Shown: piece by piece, positions 39,783 to 62,182 of the stretch
Layout of the letters: each line of letters opens with the position of its first letter
How positions within the stretch are numbered: position 1 is the stretch's first letter
NCBI RefSeq assembly: GCF_029229925.1
Contig: NZ_CP107254.1
Span: 1,054,001 to 1,118,000 of the forward strand
Source of the DNA: Halorhabdus sp. BNX81
Lineage (GTDB): Archaea > Halobacteriota > Halobacteria > Halobacteriales > Haloarculaceae
Length of the DNA: 64,000 nucleotides
Direction of reading: 5' to 3'
Made by a program: the position numbers and the translations under genes
Notes under the pieces: model-generated
Database searches by the model: none
Seen by the model: only the letters and a program-made list of their open reading frames with translations
What the model was told of the DNA's origin: nothing

Positions 39783-42521
39783 TCACTCCAGTCGTCGCTG
39801 CCACTCCTGAACCTCGGCGAGGAGGTCGACCGGCGACGTCTCCTCGACATCGAGATCGGCGAGTGTTTCGAGGACGTCCGGAGCGTCCTCGCCGAAGCGG
39901 TCGACGATCACCTCGCCGTCCGAATCCGCGGGTTCGCTGGTTGTCCCGTTCCCTTCCGGGTTGCCCGCCCGCCGCTGGTCGGTATTCGACTCCCGCATCT
40001 GCCCGGAATCGAGATCGAAGACGACTTGCCGGGTCTCGTCGGTCGAGCGGCCGTTCTGGACGTCGATCGCCTCGTCGGCCCGGAGTTTCCGGAGGACCTC
40101 CCGGGCCCGGGAGACGACCGGATCAGGGACGCCGGCCAACTCGGCGACGTGGACGCCGTAGGAGCGATCCGCCGGCCCGTCCCGTACTGTCCGCAGGAAC
40201 GCCACCTCGTTGTCGGCTCCGCTGGCTGGGCCAGCACCACTCCCGCTTTCGGCCGCATCCGGTTCGCCGTCGACGGCGACGTGGACGTTTTCGACCCCCG
40301 AAATGTGGTCGGCCAGCGCCGTGAGTTCGTGGTAGTGGGTCGCAAAGAGCGTCTTCGGCGACGGCGATGCCGACTGGGCCGAAGAGAGGTATTCGGTCGC
40401 CGCCCATGCGATCGAGATGCCGTCGTAGGTTGCCGTCCCGCGGCCGACTTCGTCTAGGATGACCAGCGAATCCTCGGTGGCCGAGTGGAGGATATTCGAG
40501 AGTTCCTGCATCTCGACCATGAACGTCGAGCGGCCCTGGGCGAGCTCGTCGAGCGCGCCGACACGAGTGTAAATCCCGTCGACGAGGCCGACCGCTGCTG
40601 ACCGAGCGGGCACGAACGACCCGATCTGAGCCAGCAGGACGATCAGCGCCGCCTGGCGCATGTAGGTGGATTTCCCGCTCATGTTGGGGCCGGTCACGAT
40701 CAGGAACCGCCGGTCGTCGTCCATTCGGAGGTCGTTGGGGACGAACTCGGTAGTCTGCTCGACGACCGGGTGGCGACCTGCTTCGACGGATAGCGCCCGC
40801 GAGTCGCGCAACGTCGGTCGGGTCCAGTCGTTTCGGACGGCGTGGGTCGCCAGTGCCGCCAACACGTCGACTGCCGCGAGGGCCTGGCCGACGCGCTGGA
40901 GGAGGTCGGCATGCTCGGCGACGTGCTCACGAAGCGCCGTGAAGCGCTCGTGTTCGAGGTCGTGGCGACGCTCCTCGAGTCGGAAGATCTGCCGTTCGCG
41001 CTCGGTCAACTCCGGGATGGTGTATCGCTCGGAGTTTTTCAGCGTCTTGACGTTCTCGTAGTGCTCCGGGACTTTCCCGGTCTCGCTGTTGCCGACCTGG
41101 ATGTAGTAGCCGTCCGTCTTGTTCCGGTCGACCGAGAGGTGCGTGATACCGTGTTCGCGCTGCTCGCGCTCGGGCAACGTTTCGATCCACTCTAAGGCCC
41201 CCTCGTGTTCCTCGATAACCTCGTCGAGTTCGTCGTCGTAGCCCGGTTTGATGATGCCACCTTCCGTGATCGTTCCCGGCGGATCCTCCACGATCGCCGC
41301 GTCGAGTTCGGCGGCGAGTCCCGCCACGGCGTCGGGATCGGGTTCGTCGAGCCACGTCGAAAGCGGCGATTCGGCCAGCGCCGGCGTCTCGGTGATGATC
41401 CCACGGACAGTCCCGAACAGTTCCAGGGTGTCGACCGCGGCCCGGAGGTCCCGGGCGTCGGCGCTCGCCGAGGCGGCCTTGCTCGCGAGTCGTTCGAGGT
41501 CGTACGCGTCCCCGAGGACGTCACGGAGCCGTTCACGCGCCATTGCCTCACTCGCGAGCGCCTCGACGCTGTCCTGCCGACGGGTCAGTATCTCCCGCGA
41601 TCGGCGGGGACGCTGGAGCCATGCGCGCAACGTCCGGGTGCCCGCGCTCGTGACGGTGTGATCGATCGTCTCGAGGAGCGATCCGCTCTCTTCCCCCCGC
41701 ATCGTCTCGGTGAGTTCGAGGTTGCGTTGGGTCGTGGCGTCGAGTTCGACGTGATCGCTCGCGCCGTAGCGCTGGAGGCGTGTCATCGACGCAAGCACGC
41801 CCTGGCCGGTCTCTTCGACATACGAGAGCACAGCCCCGGCGGCCGCGATGGCCGCGTCGGCATCGTCGATCCCGACGCTGTCGATCGTTTCGGCACCGAA
41901 CTGTTCACGGAGTCGGTGGCGGGCACGGCCGGGCGCGAACGATTCGGTCGCGTGCAGCGAGACCGCCGCGTCAGTCCGTTCTCGGAGCCGCTCGATCGTC
42001 TCGTCATCAGCGCGTACGGTGGGGCCAGGCAGCACCTCGGCCGGGTCAAAGCGGTAGAGTTCGCTGAAGACCGCGTCCCGATCGCCCACCTCCGTCACGA
42101 AGAATTCGCCGGTCGTCACGTCGGCGAACGCAAGTCCCCACGTCTCGCCCTCGACGATCGCCGCGAGATACCGGGCCTGTGGGTCAGTCGTCGACAGCAG
42201 CGTCCCCGGCGTGACGACCCGGCTCACCTCCCGAGCGTGGCCGTCTTCGGTCTCGTGTTGGTCGGCGACGGCAACATCGTAGCCACGCTCGACGAGCGCT
42301 GTCAGGTACGGCGTGAGTTCGCCGACCGGAACGCCAGCCATCGGATACGACGAGCCATGACTCGATTTCTGGGAGACCTGAAGGTCGAGTTCGTCGGCGA
42401 CCGTCTCGGCATCGTCGCCGAAGAACTCGTAGAAATCCCCCACTTGCATCGCCAGTAGATCCGCGTCAGCCCCGTCTCTCAGCGAGAAGAACTCGCCGAC
42501 GATCCCCGTCGCTTCGGTCAT
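39783..42521 (-). CDS. mutS: DNA mismatch repair protein MutS (canonical mismatch motif)
   Basis: The 912-residue protein has all MutS domains. Domain I carries the mismatch-contact motif Phe30-Tyr31-Glu32 in VGDFYEFF. The ATPase has Walker [13 protein letters not shown], then [15 protein letters not shown] and LFATHYHELT. A spacer rich in Glu, Asp and Ser precedes a C-terminal helical clamp region. MutS binds mismatches and signals to MutL. A second MutS-type gene lies 12 kb away with a changed motif. No mutL is in the window. Confidence 0.95.
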   Translation of the reverse strand: MTEATGIVGEFFSLRDGADADLLAMQVGDFYEFFGDDAETVADELDLQVSQKSSHGSSYPMAGVPVGELTPYLTALVERGYDVAVADQHETEDGHAREVSRVVTPGTLLSTTDPQARYLAAIVEGETWGLAFADVTTGEFFVTEVGDRDAVFSELYRFDPAEVLPGPTVRADDETIERLRERTDAAVSLHATESFAPGRARHRLREQFGAETIDSVGIDDADAAIAAAGAVLSYVEETGQGVLASMTRLQRYGASDHVELDATTQRNLELTETMRGEESGSLLETIDHTVTSAGTRTLRAWLQRPRRSREILTRRQDSVEALASEAMARERLRDVLGDAYDLERLASKAASASADARDLRAAVDTLELFGTVRGIITETPALAESPLSTWLDEPDPDAVAGLAAELDAAIVEDPPGTITEGGIIKPGYDDELDEVIEEHEGALEWIETLPEREQREHGITHLSVDRNKTDGYYIQVGNSETGKVPEHYENVKTLKNSERYTIPELTERERQIFRLEERRHDLEHERFTALREHVAEHADLLQRVGQALAAVDVLAALATHAVRNDWTRPTLRDSRALSVEAGRHPVVEQTTEFVPNDLRMDDDRRFLIVTGPNMSGKSTYMRQAALIVLLAQIGSFVPARSAAVGLVDGIYTRVGALDELAQGRSTFMVEMQELSNILHSATEDSLVILDEVGRGTATYDGISIAWAATEYLSSAQSASPSPKTLFATHYHELTALADHISGVENVHVAVDGEPDAAESGSGAGPASGADNEVAFLRTVRDGPADRSYGVHVAELAGVPDPVVSRAREVLRKLRADEAIDVQNGRSTDETRQVVFDLDSGQMRESNTDQRRAGNPEGNGTTSEPADSDGEVIVDRFGEDAPDVLETLADLDVEETSPVDLLAEVQEWQRRLE

Positions 42522-54602: not shown

Positions 54603-57200
54603 ATGGACGCGGCCCTGGGACCGCCGGCGAAGATGACCGACCGGCGCGAGGATCTCACGCCGATGTTGCGCCAGTACGTCGAGTTGACCGAGCGCTACGA
54701 CGACGCCCTGGTGCTGTTTCAGTCGGGTGACTTCTACAAGGCATTCTGCGAGGCCGCCGAGGTACTGGCCCGGATCTGTGAGGTGACGCTGACCGAACGC
54801 GAGGATTCGACCGGCACCTACGCGATGACGGGTGTGCCGATCGACAATGCCGAATCCTATATCGAGCAGTTACTGGACGCGGGCTACCGCGTGGCGATCG
54901 CCGACCAGGTCGAGGACCCCGACGAGGTCAGTGGCGTCGTCGAGCGCGCAGTCACGCGGATCATCACGCCAGGGACACTCACCGAGGACGAACTGCTCGG
55001 TGGTGCCGAGAACAATTACGTCGCCGCGCTGGCCGCTGACGATGGTCGATTTGGTGTGGCCGTCCTCGACGTTTCGACGGGGGACTTCTACGCGACCAGC
55101 ACCGACGACCGGGAGACGGTCAGGGACGAACTCGGTCGATTCTCGCCCGCTGAGGGAATCCTCGGCCCCGACGTCCCGAACCTCTTCGATGGGGCGTGTA
55201 CCGTCAGTCCCGTCGAGGGGACGTACTTCGCCACTGACCGGGCAGCCGAGCGCGTCGGCGAGTACTTCGGGACGCCTGATCGGCTCCTCGCGACCGATGC
55301 CGAGGTCCGGGCCTGTGGCGCGTTGCTGGCCTACGCCGAGTACGCCCGCGGGGGTGAAGCCGGTCGGCTGGACTACCTCAACCACCTCACACGATACGAT
55401 CCGCGGGCGTACATGGTACTCGACGCGGTGGCGCTCGAAAGCCTAGAGATCTTCGAACGCCGGAGTGTCACCGGCGGCGCGGACCTGACGCTCGTGGACG
55501 TGATCGACGAGACGGCTTCTGCGCTCGGCCGTCGTCGGCTGACCGAATGGCTTCGCCGTCCGCTCATCGACCGCGACCGGATCGAGGCGAGACACGCGGC
55601 CGTGGGCGCGCTCGTCTCGGAGCTCCAAACCCGCGAACGGCTCCACGAGCTACTATCCGACGTCTACGACCTCGAGCGACTCATCTCACGCGTTTCCCGC
55701 TCGCGAGCCGACGCCCGTGACCTCCGCTCGTTGAAAGACACACTCGACGTGATCCCGGAGATCAAAGCGGCGTTGGACGGCATCGATGCCCCGCTGTTGA
55801 CCGACCTTCGAGACCGTCTCGACGAGATGGACGACGTCCGCGGGTTGATCGACGACGCGATCGCGGCGGACCCACCGACCGAAATCACCGAGGGTGGGAT
55901 CATCAGTGAGAGCTACGACGACCGACTCGACGAGTTGCGCGCGACCGAACGGGAGGGCAAGGAGTGGATCACCGACTTGGAGGAAAGCGAACGCGAGCGG
56001 ACCGGCATCGACTCGTTGAAGGTCGGCCACAACGCCGTCCACGGCTACTACATCGAAGTGACCGACGCGAACCTCGATCGGGTCCCCGGGGATTACCAGC
56101 GCCGACAGACGCTGAAGAACGCCGAGCGCTACTACACGCCCGAACTCAAGGAGCACGAGGACGAGATTCTCCGGGCGGCGGGGCGGGCCGACGATCTGGA
56201 GTACGATCTGTTTGTCGCAGTGCGAGACGACGTCGCCGCCGAGTCCGAGCGCGTCCAGGCGGTCGCCGACGCCGTGGCGACTCTCGATGTCTTGGTCGGC
56301 TTTGCCACCGTCGCAGCCGAACGCGATTACTGCTGTCCCTCGGTCGACGGGGATGGCATTGCCATTGACGGAGGCCGCCATCCAGTCGTCGAGCGCACCG
56401 AGGACGCATTCGTCCCGAACGACACGGATCTCGATGATGACGCCTTCCTCGCGGTGATCACGGGGCCCAACATGAGTGGCAAGTCGACGTACATGCGCCA
56501 GGTCGCGCTGATCGCGATCCTCGCCCAGGCTGGGAGTTTCGTGCCCGCCGAATCGGCCGACCTGCGGATCGTCGACCGCGTGTTCACCCGCGTCGGCGCG
56601 AGTGACGACATCGCCGGCGGGCGCTCGACGTTCATGGTCGAGATGAGCGAACTCGCGACGATTCTGGCGCAAGCGACCGACGAATCACTGGTGCTGCTGG
56701 ACGAAGTGGGCCGTGGCACCAGCACGACCGACGGCCTGGCGATCGCCCAGGCAGTGACGGAGTTCATCCACGACGAGGTCGGCGCGACGACGCTGTTCGC
56801 GACTCACCACCACGAATTGACTGACGTGGCAGCAGCACTGGATAGCGCACGGAATTTCCACTTCCGGACCGAACAGGCGGGCGAAGAGGTGTCGTTCCCC
56901 TACGACATCGCCACCGGGCCGGCAGCAGCCTCCTACGGTGTCGAGGTGGCCGGGGTGGCCGGCGTGCCGGACCCGGTCGTCGACCGCTCGCGAGAACTGC
57001 TCGGTGACAGTACCCCCGACGGCCGGGAACCGGGTCAAGAGCCCGATCGAACCGCGACGGAACGTGAAAGTGAAACGCTCGGGGAACCCGACCGAGACGA
57101 TGTCGTCGCCGAACTCCGATCGCTTTCCGTCGCTGAGATGACGCCCATTCAGGCGCTGAACGCGTTGGCCGACTTACAGCGTCAGGCCGACCGGGAGTAG
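54603..57200 (+). CDS. mutS: MutS-family protein with altered mismatch-contact motif
   Basis: The 865-residue protein has the full MutS layout: domain I, the connector and lever domains, the clamp, and an ATPase with [28 protein letters not shown] and [11 protein letters not shown]. In domain I the canonical Phe-x-Glu reads Phe44-Tyr45-Lys46 (SGDFYKAF); the codon is aag. The glutamate that contacts the mismatch in MutS is thus a lysine. The protein may have changed its DNA target or be a specialised paralogue. ATG 54603 or 54633 are both possible starts. The canonical MutS lies at 39783. Confidence 0.92.
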
Positions 57201-58702: not shown

Positions 58703-58721
58703 GTATTACGGTGCGTATTAC
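58703..58721 (+). promoter_or_regulatory. direct repeat operator of the AbrB-VapC module
   Basis: GTATTAC occurs at 58703-58709 and again at 58715-58721, a 12-base spacing, and the second copy ends 5 bases before the AbrB start codon. Direct repeats of this kind just before an antitoxin gene suit autorepression by an AbrB-type protein. Confidence 0.55.
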
Positions 58722-58726
58722 CACTC

Positions 58727-58987
58727 ATGAGCGAGGCCACGCGTGTTACGGAGAAGGGGCAGGCGACGATCCCGAAGGAACTCCGTGAGAAGTACGATCT
58801 CGAACCGGGCGACGAGGTCGTCTGGTTGGACACCGACGACGGCATCGTCGTCAAAAAGCGGACCCGCACAACCGGCCGCGGGCTGCTCGTCCCCGATGAG
58901 ACTTCCGAGGAAAAACGCACGGAGATCTCCACGGAGCTACAGCAGCGTCTCCGCAATCGCCGCGACCGAAACTACGAGGACGCCTGA
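58727..58987 (+). CDS. vapB: AbrB-type antitoxin/regulator
   Basis: The 86-residue protein is a swapped-hairpin AbrB domain (RVTEKGQATIPKELREKYDL, then EPGDEVVWLDTDDGIVV) with a C-terminal tail expected to wrap the toxin (STELQQRLRNRRDRNYEDA). It binds DNA and should repress its own operon with VapC. The ATG at 58727 was chosen; it is followed by the PIN gene with a 1-base gap. Confidence 0.88.
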   Translation: MSEATRVTEKGQATIPKELREKYDLEPGDEVVWLDTDDGIVVKKRTRTTGRGLLVPDETSEEKRTEISTELQQRLRNRRDRNYEDA

Positions 58988-58988
58988 A

Positions 58989-59396
58989 ATGGCGACCTAC
59001 ACCGCTGATGCCGTTTCGTTGCTGGTGTATCTCGTCGACGCGCTCCCGGCGCGAGCCGACCGTCTCTTTGCTGAGGCCGAAGCCGGTGAGACAGTCATCC
59101 ACGCCCCAAGCACAGCCCTGGTAGAAGTTCTCTACGCCGTCGCCCACGATAAGAACGTTCGAGGCGTCAGGCTCACAGGAACGCCGGAGGAAACGAGAGA
59201 GGCACTGGTGGGGAGCGGCCCGATCTCGACCGCACCGATTGACGAACGAGCGTTGAGCGAGTACACCCGGATAGTAGACGAATTCAGTATCCACGATGGG
59301 CTGGTAGTTGCGAGCCATCGAGCGAGTGACACTGAAGCCATCATCACGACGGACGGAGCCATCCGTGAAGCTGGATGTGACACCGTCTGGAAGTGA
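58989..59396 (+). CDS. vapC: VapC-like PIN-domain RNase toxin
   Basis: The 135-residue PIN-domain protein has the first acidic residue in YTADAVSLLVYLVD, a middle Glu near LVEVLYAV, and a closing HDGLVVASHRASDTEAIITT with late Asp residues. PIN toxins cut RNA, often tRNA or mRNA, when the antitoxin is lost. The gene starts 1 base after the AbrB stop. Its own TGA lies within a GTGA that could also start the next frame, so a helicase product may be co-translated. Confidence 0.85.
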   Translation: MATYTADAVSLLVYLVDALPARADRLFAEAEAGETVIHAPSTALVEVLYAVAHDKNVRGVRLTGTPEETREALVGSGPISTAPIDERALSEYTRIVDEFSIHDGLVVASHRASDTEAIITTDGAIREAGCDTVWK

Positions 59397-59473
59397 CGTC
59401 CTCCGCCGATCGGCTCGGTCTTGAGCCGCGGCCCACCGACAGCGTTTTTCCCACTCCAGCCCAGTCAATCGAT

Positions 59474-62182
59474 GTGCATCTCCGTGGGCCAGTCCTCGAG
59501 GTAGGCGAGACGAAAACCGTCAGCACGGACTACGGCGAGCGGGACCTCGCCGAGGTCACGATCCGCCCCGAGGACGGCCGCGCGGAGCCAGTCACGGTCA
59601 CGCTGTGGGGTAAGTGGACCGAGACGGCCGACGTCCTCGAAGCCGGGATGGACATCGCCGTCTTCGACGCAGAGGAGCGCGAGTATCGCGGCGAGACCAC
59701 CTATCAGACCGGCGAGGACACGATGGTCGTTGTCGAACCCGACTTCATCGTCGACGTGACCGATGTCCGGTCGTGGGTGCAGTGTCCCCGGATGTACTAC
59801 CTGAACAAGCTCTCGGGGACGCCGCTGGCCTACCCGGTCGTGAAAGGGACCATCGTCCACGAGGTCTTCGGCGATCTCCTTCGCGGTCGGGACGTCGAGG
59901 ACGCCGTCGCCGAACGCGTCGACGAGGTCGGCCTCGAACTCGGCCTTCTGGGACGGGACGCCGAAACGGTCCGCCAGGACGCCCTGGATCACGCCAGCGC
60001 GATCGAAGGCTGGCTCCAGCAGGGCCACCTGACCGACGGCGGCCAGACCACCTTCGGTCCGACCGAGGGCGAGTGGCGCTCCGAACAGACGCTCATCAGC
60101 CAGCGCTACGGGCTGAAGGGACGGGCCGACGCCGTCCGGCGGGGGATGCCCGTCGAACTCAAGACGGGCAAGAACACGAACCGTGAACCACGATTTCAGG
60201 ACAAGATCCAGGCCGCCGCCTACGCCCTCATCCTGGGCGAACACGGCGACGAACCGCCCAACACCGGGACGCTTCTCTATACCAAGAACGCTGCAGTCGA
60301 TCGCAATGAGGAGGGCGGTGACCTCTCGCCGGCCAAGGAGTTCTCCATCGGGTCGGGCCTGCTCGAGTTCGTCCTCCGGACGAGAAACGAAATCGCCGCG
60401 ATGGAGCACGGCATGGATGTCCCGACCGGCTACGAGGCCGATGCAAAGTGCGAGTACTGCTTCGAGCAGGACACCTGCATGGCCGTCTCGGGCCGGCTGG
60501 ATCAGGAGTCAAAGGCCGGCCAGATCGGGAACCCGATCCCGGAAGACGAACGCGAGTACTTCGAGCGGAACTATCGTGCGATCGAGGCCGAGCGCCGGGC
60601 CGCTCACCGTGAGTACGCCAAGCTCTGGGACCAGGACAAAGAGGAACGGGCCGAGGACGACCGCGCGCTGATCGACCTCGAACCCACCGGCCAACGCGAA
60701 CTCGACGACGGCAGCTGGGAACTGCGAGCCAAAGCGACGGGCGCGACCTCGAAGATCCGCGAAGGTGACGTCGTGCTGGCGAGTGACGGTGACCCGATCG
60801 AAGGTGAGGCGGAACTGGCCCGCGTCCAACGGCTAGCAGATGAAATCGTCGTCACCGCCGACGAACCGGTCGAGCTCCGCCGGCTCGACGTCTATCCCTC
60901 GGAACTCTCGACCGACCGGATGCTGACGGCGATCCACGACGCCCTGTTGCAACAGTCACCCGACGAGAAAGCAGTCCTGTTCGGCGGCCAAGCGCCCGCG
61001 TTCGAGGACGTCGCGGAGACGTTCATCGAGAACAACCCCGCCCAGGATCAGGCAGTCAGTCGGGCAGTTGGCGCGGAGGACTTCGCGCTGATCCACGGCC
61101 CGCCGGGGACCGGCAAGACCTACACGCTCGCGACGCTGGTCGACGCGCTGGTCGAGCGCGGCGAGCGCGTTCTCCTCTCTGCCTTCACGAACCGCGCGGT
61201 CGACAACGCCGTCGAGGCGTTGCTGGAGCAGGGCGTCGAGGGCGTCGTCCGGATGGGGACCGAGACCGGCGTTCGCGAGGATCTCGCCCACGTCCGACTC
61301 GATCCGGCGGGCGATCCCGACGAGCGGGCGGCCGAACTCACCGAGGCACCCGTCGTCGCGGCGACGACGGCGACCTGCGGCTCGCGGATCATGCGCGAGC
61401 AGGACTTCGACGTGGCTGTCATCGACGAGGCGGGACAGTTGACCGAACCCGGTGCGCTGGCGGCGGTCGCCCGCGCCGAGCGGTTCGTCCTCGTCGGCGA
61501 CCACCAGCAACTCCCACCGGTCGTCCGCGCGGAAGACGACATCGCCGACCGGGAGTCGACCGCCGACCTTTCCCAATCGCTGTTCGAGCGCCTGATCGAC
61601 GCCCATCCCGACGCCGGCGTGTTGCTCGATCGGCAATACCGGATGGCCCAGCGAATCCAGGCCTACTCCTCCTGGGAGTTCTACGACGGGCAGTTGCGGC
61701 CCGCCAGCGGCGAGATCGCCGGACAGACGCTCGCCGATCTCGATGGCGTCGATCCGGCCGCACTGCCCGACCATCTCGGAGGTCGGGTCACGTTTCTCGA
61801 TCCGGACGGGCAGGCAGTGGGGAACACCAATCCCGACGAGGCTGCGGCCGTGGCGGAGACCGTCGACTCGTACCTCGATGCCGGCGTCGATCCGGGAGAC
61901 GTGGGCGTGATTGCGCCGTATCGCGCGCAGGTCGCCGAGATCGGCCAGCGCGTCCCCGACGGGGTGACCGTCGACACCGTCGATCGCTTCCAGGGGTCCA
62001 GTAAGGAGGTCGTCCTCGTCTCCTTCGTCGCCACAGGGAGCCTGGAGGGACCGATCTTCGAGGACTATCGGCGGATCAACGTCGCGCTGACGCGGGCGAA
62101 GCGTGCACTCGTGCTGATCGGCGATGCCGAGGCACTCTCGACCGACGACCGGTATCGGCGGATGGTCGAGTGGGCGCGCTGA
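59474..62182 (+). CDS. Dna2/Cas4-like nuclease-helicase (SF1B)
   Basis: The protein of about 902 residues begins with an OB-fold-like part (HLRGPVLEVGETKTVSTDYG) and goes on to a Cas4-type nuclease with PLAYPVVKGTIVHEVFG, MPVELKTGKN and QAAAYALIL. A Cys set (CPRMYYL at about 59783, and CEYCFEQDTC at about 60449) would hold an iron-sulfur cluster. The UPF1-like SF1B helicase has Walker A GPPGTGKT near 61098, VIDEAGQL, LDRQYRM, VDRFQGSSKEVV and INVALTRAKR. Dna2 trims DNA ends and flaps in replication and repair. A GTG at 59393, overlapping the vapC stop, would add 27 residues; GTG 59474 is preferred by domain content. Confidence 0.85.
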   Translation: MHLRGPVLEVGETKTVSTDYGERDLAEVTIRPEDGRAEPVTVTLWGKWTETADVLEAGMDIAVFDAEEREYRGETTYQTGEDTMVVVEPDFIVDVTDVRSWVQCPRMYYLNKLSGTPLAYPVVKGTIVHEVFGDLLRGRDVEDAVAERVDEVGLELGLLGRDAETVRQDALDHASAIEGWLQQGHLTDGGQTTFGPTEGEWRSEQTLISQRYGLKGRADAVRRGMPVELKTGKNTNREPRFQDKIQAAAYALILGEHGDEPPNTGTLLYTKNAAVDRNEEGGDLSPAKEFSIGSGLLEFVLRTRNEIAAMEHGMDVPTGYEADAKCEYCFEQDTCMAVSGRLDQESKAGQIGNPIPEDEREYFERNYRAIEAERRAAHREYAKLWDQDKEERAEDDRALIDLEPTGQRELDDGSWELRAKATGATSKIREGDVVLASDGDPIEGEAELARVQRLADEIVVTADEPVELRRLDVYPSELSTDRMLTAIHDALLQQSPDEKAVLFGGQAPAFEDVAETFIENNPAQDQAVSRAVGAEDFALIHGPPGTGKTYTLATLVDALVERGERVLLSAFTNRAVDNAVEALLEQGVEGVVRMGTETGVREDLAHVRLDPAGDPDERAAELTEAPVVAATTATCGSRIMREQDFDVAVIDEAGQLTEPGALAAVARAERFVLVGDHQQLPPVVRAEDDIADRESTADLSQSLFERLIDAHPDAGVLLDRQYRMAQRIQAYSSWEFYDGQLRPASGEIAGQTLADLDGVDPAALPDHLGGRVTFLDPDGQAVGNTNPDEAAAVAETVDSYLDAGVDPGDVGVIAPYRAQVAEIGQRVPDGVTVDTVDRFQGSSKEVVLVSFVATGSLEGPIFEDYRRINVALTRAKRALVLIGDAEALSTDDRYRRMVEWAR

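Follow-up and report, generated by a model that had tools for sequence, protein, structure and literature searches.

Two MutS1 genes in the window

The window, by which we mean the whole 64,000-nucleotide stretch of Halorhabdus DNA that was analyzed, carries two genes of the MutS1 family. We refer to them as mutS1A and mutS1B, and the features used below are as follows.

39783..42521, minus strand: mutS1A, 912 amino acids, GDFYE kept; ortholog of Haloferax volcanii MutS1a by MutL neighborhood
54603..57200, plus strand: mutS1B, 865 amino acids, MutS1 family with all five MutS domains; ortholog of H. volcanii MutS1b by MutL neighborhood
54720..54749, plus strand: mismatch-reading segment, MutS1B residues 40 to 49, with V41 changed to S and E46 changed to K
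54822..54839, plus strand: second reading-head segment, MutS1B residues 74 to 79 (AMTGVP), which is PMAGIP in most Glu-type orthologs
56454..57002, plus strand: ATPase domain V of MutS1B, with the Walker A Lys and the relay residues N623, S675, D700, E701, and H735 conserved

Both proteins contain the Pfam domains MutS_I to MutS_V in order, and both passed the NCBIfam mutS1 model (TIGR01070, equivalog cutoff of 641.7 bits), MutS1B with 946 bits over residues 18 to 859 and MutS1A with 840 bits. MutS1A has the motif MQVGDFYEFF. MutS1B has SGDFYKAF (Phe44-Tyr45-Lys46), its Lys codon, aag, lying at 54738-54740 after ttc-tac. An earlier note on this DNA had given this motif for the second MutS and an intact GDFYEFF for the other; the sequence, codon, and numbering were all correct, and the second motif was confirmed on the minus strand at mutS1A. 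An ungapped alignment to solved structures places Lys46 at Glu41 of Thermus aquaticus MutS and at Glu38 of Escherichia coli MutS, within GDFYELF. In E. coli, Glu38 hydrogen-bonds the mismatched base at N3 of T or N7 of purines (PMC3848065). Compared with these two proteins, MutS1B has the same five domains, full-length homology, the GDF-Y wedge, and the ATPase and relay, but the Glu of Phe-X-Glu is Lys and V41 is Ser. Homology, architecture, and relay all identify MutS1B as a MutS1, yet of Phe-X-Glu, the defining feature of mismatch reading in MutS1, it keeps only the Phe (Phe44). The genome holds four PF00488 genes in all. The two others, at genome positions 598841 and 1034908, match much more weakly and are perhaps MutS5-type paralogs as in Haloferax.

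The assignment to MutS1a and MutS1b comes from gene order. In Haloferax genomes other than H. volcanii, a short MutL comes immediately after the MutS1B type and a long one after the MutS1A type. In H. volcanii, MutS1b (HVO_0552) lies beside MutLb (HVO_0551) and MutS1a (HVO_1940) beside MutLa (HVO_1939) (PMC11276520). By this gene order, the second MutS of the window is the MutS1b ortholog and the first is the MutS1a ortholog. The sampled Haloferax MutS1B proteins keep Glu. The mutS1B-mutLb pair was also kept in the Glu-less Haloferacaceae that were checked (Halobaculum, Halolamina, and the genera g60 and g51). We considered a MutLb without an endonuclease domain, only the N terminus having aligned, and rejected it: the endonuclease motif DQHAAHER[VI]N[YF]E is intact in these proteins and the MutL_C domain is present. 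Haloferacaceae MutLb is about 540 amino acids long and directly follows mutS1B, and the dedicated pair looks like a separate mismatch repair-type module. This gene-pair evidence does not extend to Halorhabdus, whose genome has one full-length MutL, which is unlinked (at 1529156).

Other open reading frames lie near mutS1B in the window. A RecB/Dna2-like nuclease-helicase of 929 amino acids, named by eye, spans 59393-62182; a counterpart lies beside mutS1B in the genome G050, and no match was seen in the stretch read from G144. Between mutS1B and this gene, AbrB/VapB-like and PIN-like frames (58703-59396), also named by eye, are likely a toxin-antitoxin pair.

Spread and origins of the Glu loss

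We aligned 144 MutS1B and 32 MutS1A sequences from haloarchaeal genomes. Glu was found at the position of residue 46 in 109 of the 144 MutS1B sequences (as QVGDFYE) and in 32/32 MutS1A sequences, even where the same genome encodes a Lys-type MutS1B. All seven sampled Halorhabdus genomes had Lys46, as QSGDFYK. RVGDFYK was present in 22/22 aligned MutS1B sequences from five Haloferacaceae genera (g28, g35, g44, g57, and g60), and genus g51 had Gln in the form QNGDFYQ (6/6 aligned sequences and 8/8 in the census described below). The earlier note had asked whether an alignment of haloarchaeal MutS would show Lys to be fixed and had named, as its refutation, a private substitution among orthologs mostly with Glu. 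Lys proved to be fixed in Halorhabdus and not in haloarchaea as a whole; most orthologs do have Glu, yet Lys is no private change, being shared by the genus and recurring in other clades. A private change or sequencing error was rejected on the 7/7 Halorhabdus genomes.

A census of 391 haloarchaeal genomes used a pattern that accepted any MutS1B codon at the Glu position not starting with G. It returned 30 Lys genomes and 8 Gln genomes, so that non-Glu residues occurred only in well-defined clades; three matches were judged to be chance. Among the latter were those in G161 and G350, with codons for GDFYTSYC and GDFYFIYC, the G161 match lying away from the MutS1B gene of that genome. Matches to a first pattern in G215, G199, G075, and G154 were not MutS, and the MutS1B proteins of G075, G199, and G154 have Glu. 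Named genomes with a Lys-type MutS1B include Halorhabdus salina and Halorhabdus amylolytica as well as Halobaculum, Halolamina, and Halobonum. A scan of named genomes added Halospeciosus flavus (QVGDFYK), the related metagenome-assembled genomes (MAGs) LUM.66 and A07HB70 (RVGDFYK), and the MAG QS_1_68_20 (SGDFYK). In QS_1_68_20, mutS1B is frameshifted by one base immediately ahead of GDFYK, which may be an assembly error. The Lys codon was AAG in every MutS match of the census; if the ancestral codon was GAG, the changes to AAG and to CAG would each be a single-base change. A search of 247 genomes of the phylum, many of which may lack MutS1, found no Lys-type MutS outside haloarchaea. None of the bacterial matches in the named collection was a MutS, with a pattern that demanded the haloarchaeal Cys after the motif and so was no survey of bacterial MutS.

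To count origins, we built trees (quick LG+G4) without domain I, lest the trait itself shape the tree. The MutS1A/MutS1B split had 100% support. On the 131-row tree, the Glu loss mapped to 3 changes, rising to 6 to 7 when the extra lineages were added. The approximately unbiased (AU) test rejected a single clade of Halorhabdus and the Haloferacaceae Lys proteins (P = 1.2e-4) and likewise a union of Halospeciosus with the Haloferacaceae Lys clade (P = 2.5e-8). It did not reject Halorhabdus with QS_1_68_20 (P = 0.15 to 0.24) or Halorhabdus with Halospeciosus (P = 0.11), and a single origin for these three lineages is thus compatible with the test (P = 0.11 to 0.24). From these rejections and nonrejections, we conclude that Glu in haloarchaeal MutS1B gave way to Lys independently at least twice and to Gln once, and the tree suggests further changes.

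Coupled changes and constraint

We scored accompanying changes in those alignment columns where conservation across all the other Glu-type MutS1B proteins was 98% or higher. In Halorhabdus, domain I carried V41S and E46K, and H767Y was the sole change elsewhere. The Haloferacaceae Lys clade had Q40R, E46K, T64I, and M75A, with one more outside domain I, and genus g51 had V41N, E46Q, and F48Y and none outside domain I. With residue 46 left out, the Glu-less clades showed changes in 6/141 domain I cells versus 2/600 elsewhere (Fisher P = 8.6e-4, an indicative value since the test takes cells as independent and the clades are few). Glu-type genera, used as a control, showed no such bias (9/1200 versus 27/5000, P = 0.40). 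In Halospeciosus, which is separate from the Haloferacaceae clade, K46 is accompanied by I64 and A75. LUM.66 and A07HB70 combine K46 with R40 and retain T64 and M75. Residues 40 to 48 flank the Phe wedge. Residues 74 to 76 are part of the PMAG loop, which presumably lies near the DNA minor groove in MutS-DNA structures.

Such coupled changes would also fit a refitted mismatch pocket, with Lys-type MutS1B doing ordinary mismatch repair with an altered spectrum. Lys would donate a hydrogen bond to a purine N7 or carbonyl, perhaps helped by the salt-screened cytoplasm; Gln, the other natural replacement, can also hydrogen-bond, and Phe44, the whole ATPase, and the relay are kept. We consider this explanation doubtful. 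The E. coli E38Q protein no longer tells matched from mismatched duplexes (PMC3848065), and wherever the MutS1A of a Lys genome was read, it retains Glu for that job. The MutS1 genes are, moreover, dispensable for the mutation rate of Halobacterium salinarum, where deletions of mutS1A, of mutS1A and mutS1B, and of mutL did not raise mutation frequency (PMC2816208). Crystal structures exist for E. coli E38A, E38Q, and E38T (PMC3848065), which alter the same residue, and Gln is the natural state in g51; these are laboratory point mutants without compensating neighbors, unlike the haloarchaeal forms. No Lys mutant at E38 was found in the literature examined. The earlier note held that repair needs both Phe and Glu; for Glu, this overstates the general case, given that natural MutS proteins lack it and E38 mutants are described as mainly losing discrimination.

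The small mutator effect of the H. salinarum deletions could equally be read as relaxed constraint, with MutS1B redundant with MutS1A and NucS, Glu having drifted away, and Lys or Gln being nearly neutral. Loss of the Phe-X-Glu residues (equivalents of Phe36 and Glu38) from MutS1 of ferns and Zygnema has been read as compromised repair (PMC12292046). That loss is natural, as in haloarchaea, but it is sporadic, while the haloarchaeal replacement is recurrent and conserved over whole genera. Between Halorhabdus species, whole-gene dN/dS was 0.09 to 0.13 for MutS1B and 0.08 to 0.15 for MutS1A, about 0.1 and equal in the two; domain I of MutS1B was constrained at least as much as the whole gene, with low dN. 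Residue 46 did not wander after the switches: the tree beyond them amounts to about 3.5 substitutions per site, with no further change at this residue. Together with changes confined to the reading head, an intact ATPase, and parallel outcomes with parallel partner changes, this makes relaxed constraint unlikely. Pseudogene decay of MutS1B was also judged unlikely, given dN/dS, the ATPase, and the stability of residue 46.

The residues N616, S668, D693, E694, and H728 (E. coli numbers) form the signal relay to the ATPase in E. coli MutS (reviewed in PMC3848065). These residues and the Walker A Lys were invariant in all groups, which bears out the intact ATPase described in the earlier note. 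In MutS1B, then, the relay is intact, and the alteration lies in its trigger alone. Between the window genome and G050, MutS1B was 96% identical and MutS1A only 88%, and the dS of MutS1B was unusually low (0.17 versus 0.51). Gene exchange at mutS1B in the recent past may account for this pattern.

A proposed retuning of the reading head

The earlier note proposed that the charge reversal favors another target. A changed target is plausible, because the reversal is fixed in the genus, arose more than once, and is accompanied by changes on the reading face while the ATPase is intact; no particular target has gained support so far. The targets named there were a modified base, a branched structure, and an RNA-DNA site. 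We consider it very unlikely that Lys46 adapts the protein to base modifications, RNA-DNA hybrids, or embedded ribonucleotides: other chemistry could be favored by a basic side chain at the site that reads the base, but no modification or RNase partner was present among the compared genes around mutS1B.

We instead favor, at roughly even odds (about 0.5), a reading in which Halorhabdus MutS1B still functions as a MutS1 clamp but has a retuned mismatch-reading head, probably for heteroduplex formed in recombination or gene conversion, a substrate and pathway that we infer. The Glu that Lys46 replaces makes the hydrogen bond to the mismatched base, and neighboring reading-head residues have shifted as well. 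Phe44 would still wedge into the duplex. With a basic or neutral residue at position 46, the protein would lose the negative charge that disfavors ordinary duplex, and the bases or backbone available for bonding would differ. The clamp would then be licensed by recombination-type heteroduplex, loops, or flexible DNA and not by single base mismatches, and MutS1A, with its Glu, would keep classical mismatch reading. These cells are polyploid, and MutS1B would most likely serve in them to process heteroduplex arising in intermolecular gene conversion.

The choice of gene conversion follows from H. volcanii, where deletion of mutS1b lowered survival in an intermolecular gene-conversion assay and deletion of mutS1a did not (PMC11276520). 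That role was found in Haloferax, whose sampled MutS1B proteins are Glu-type, and so it cannot by itself explain the loss of Glu. The proposed loss of the classical base-contact license follows from the E38Q protein and from eukaryotic MSH3 (of MutS-beta), an insertion/deletion-loop reader with a basic residue at the Glu position (Arg of GYKYRFF, aligned by eye via the common G and FGEDAE frame). The MSH3 analogy is partial: MSH3 has Tyr245-Lys246 for Asp-Phe and works as a heterodimer with MSH2, whereas MutS1B keeps Asp43-Phe44 and thus the Phe that MSH3 lacks.

More tentatively, haloarchaea may have repeatedly turned a bacterial-type MutS1 into a MutS-MutL module not licensed by mismatches, a prokaryotic counterpart to MSH3 or to recombination MutS proteins; the conversion would consist of exchanging Glu for Lys or Gln together with a few partners in the reading head. 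Textbooks present Glu38/41 as the license for repair; its repeated natural loss, with the same neighbors changed and the downstream machinery kept, amounts to an evolutionary mutagenesis experiment on how MutS chooses what to signal. Cultured species exist for each state (Lys in Halorhabdus and in Halobaculum and Halolamina, Glu in Haloferax), making the proposal testable. The finding also bears on the role of haloarchaeal MutS and MutL, whose deletion did not raise the mutation rate (PMC2816208).
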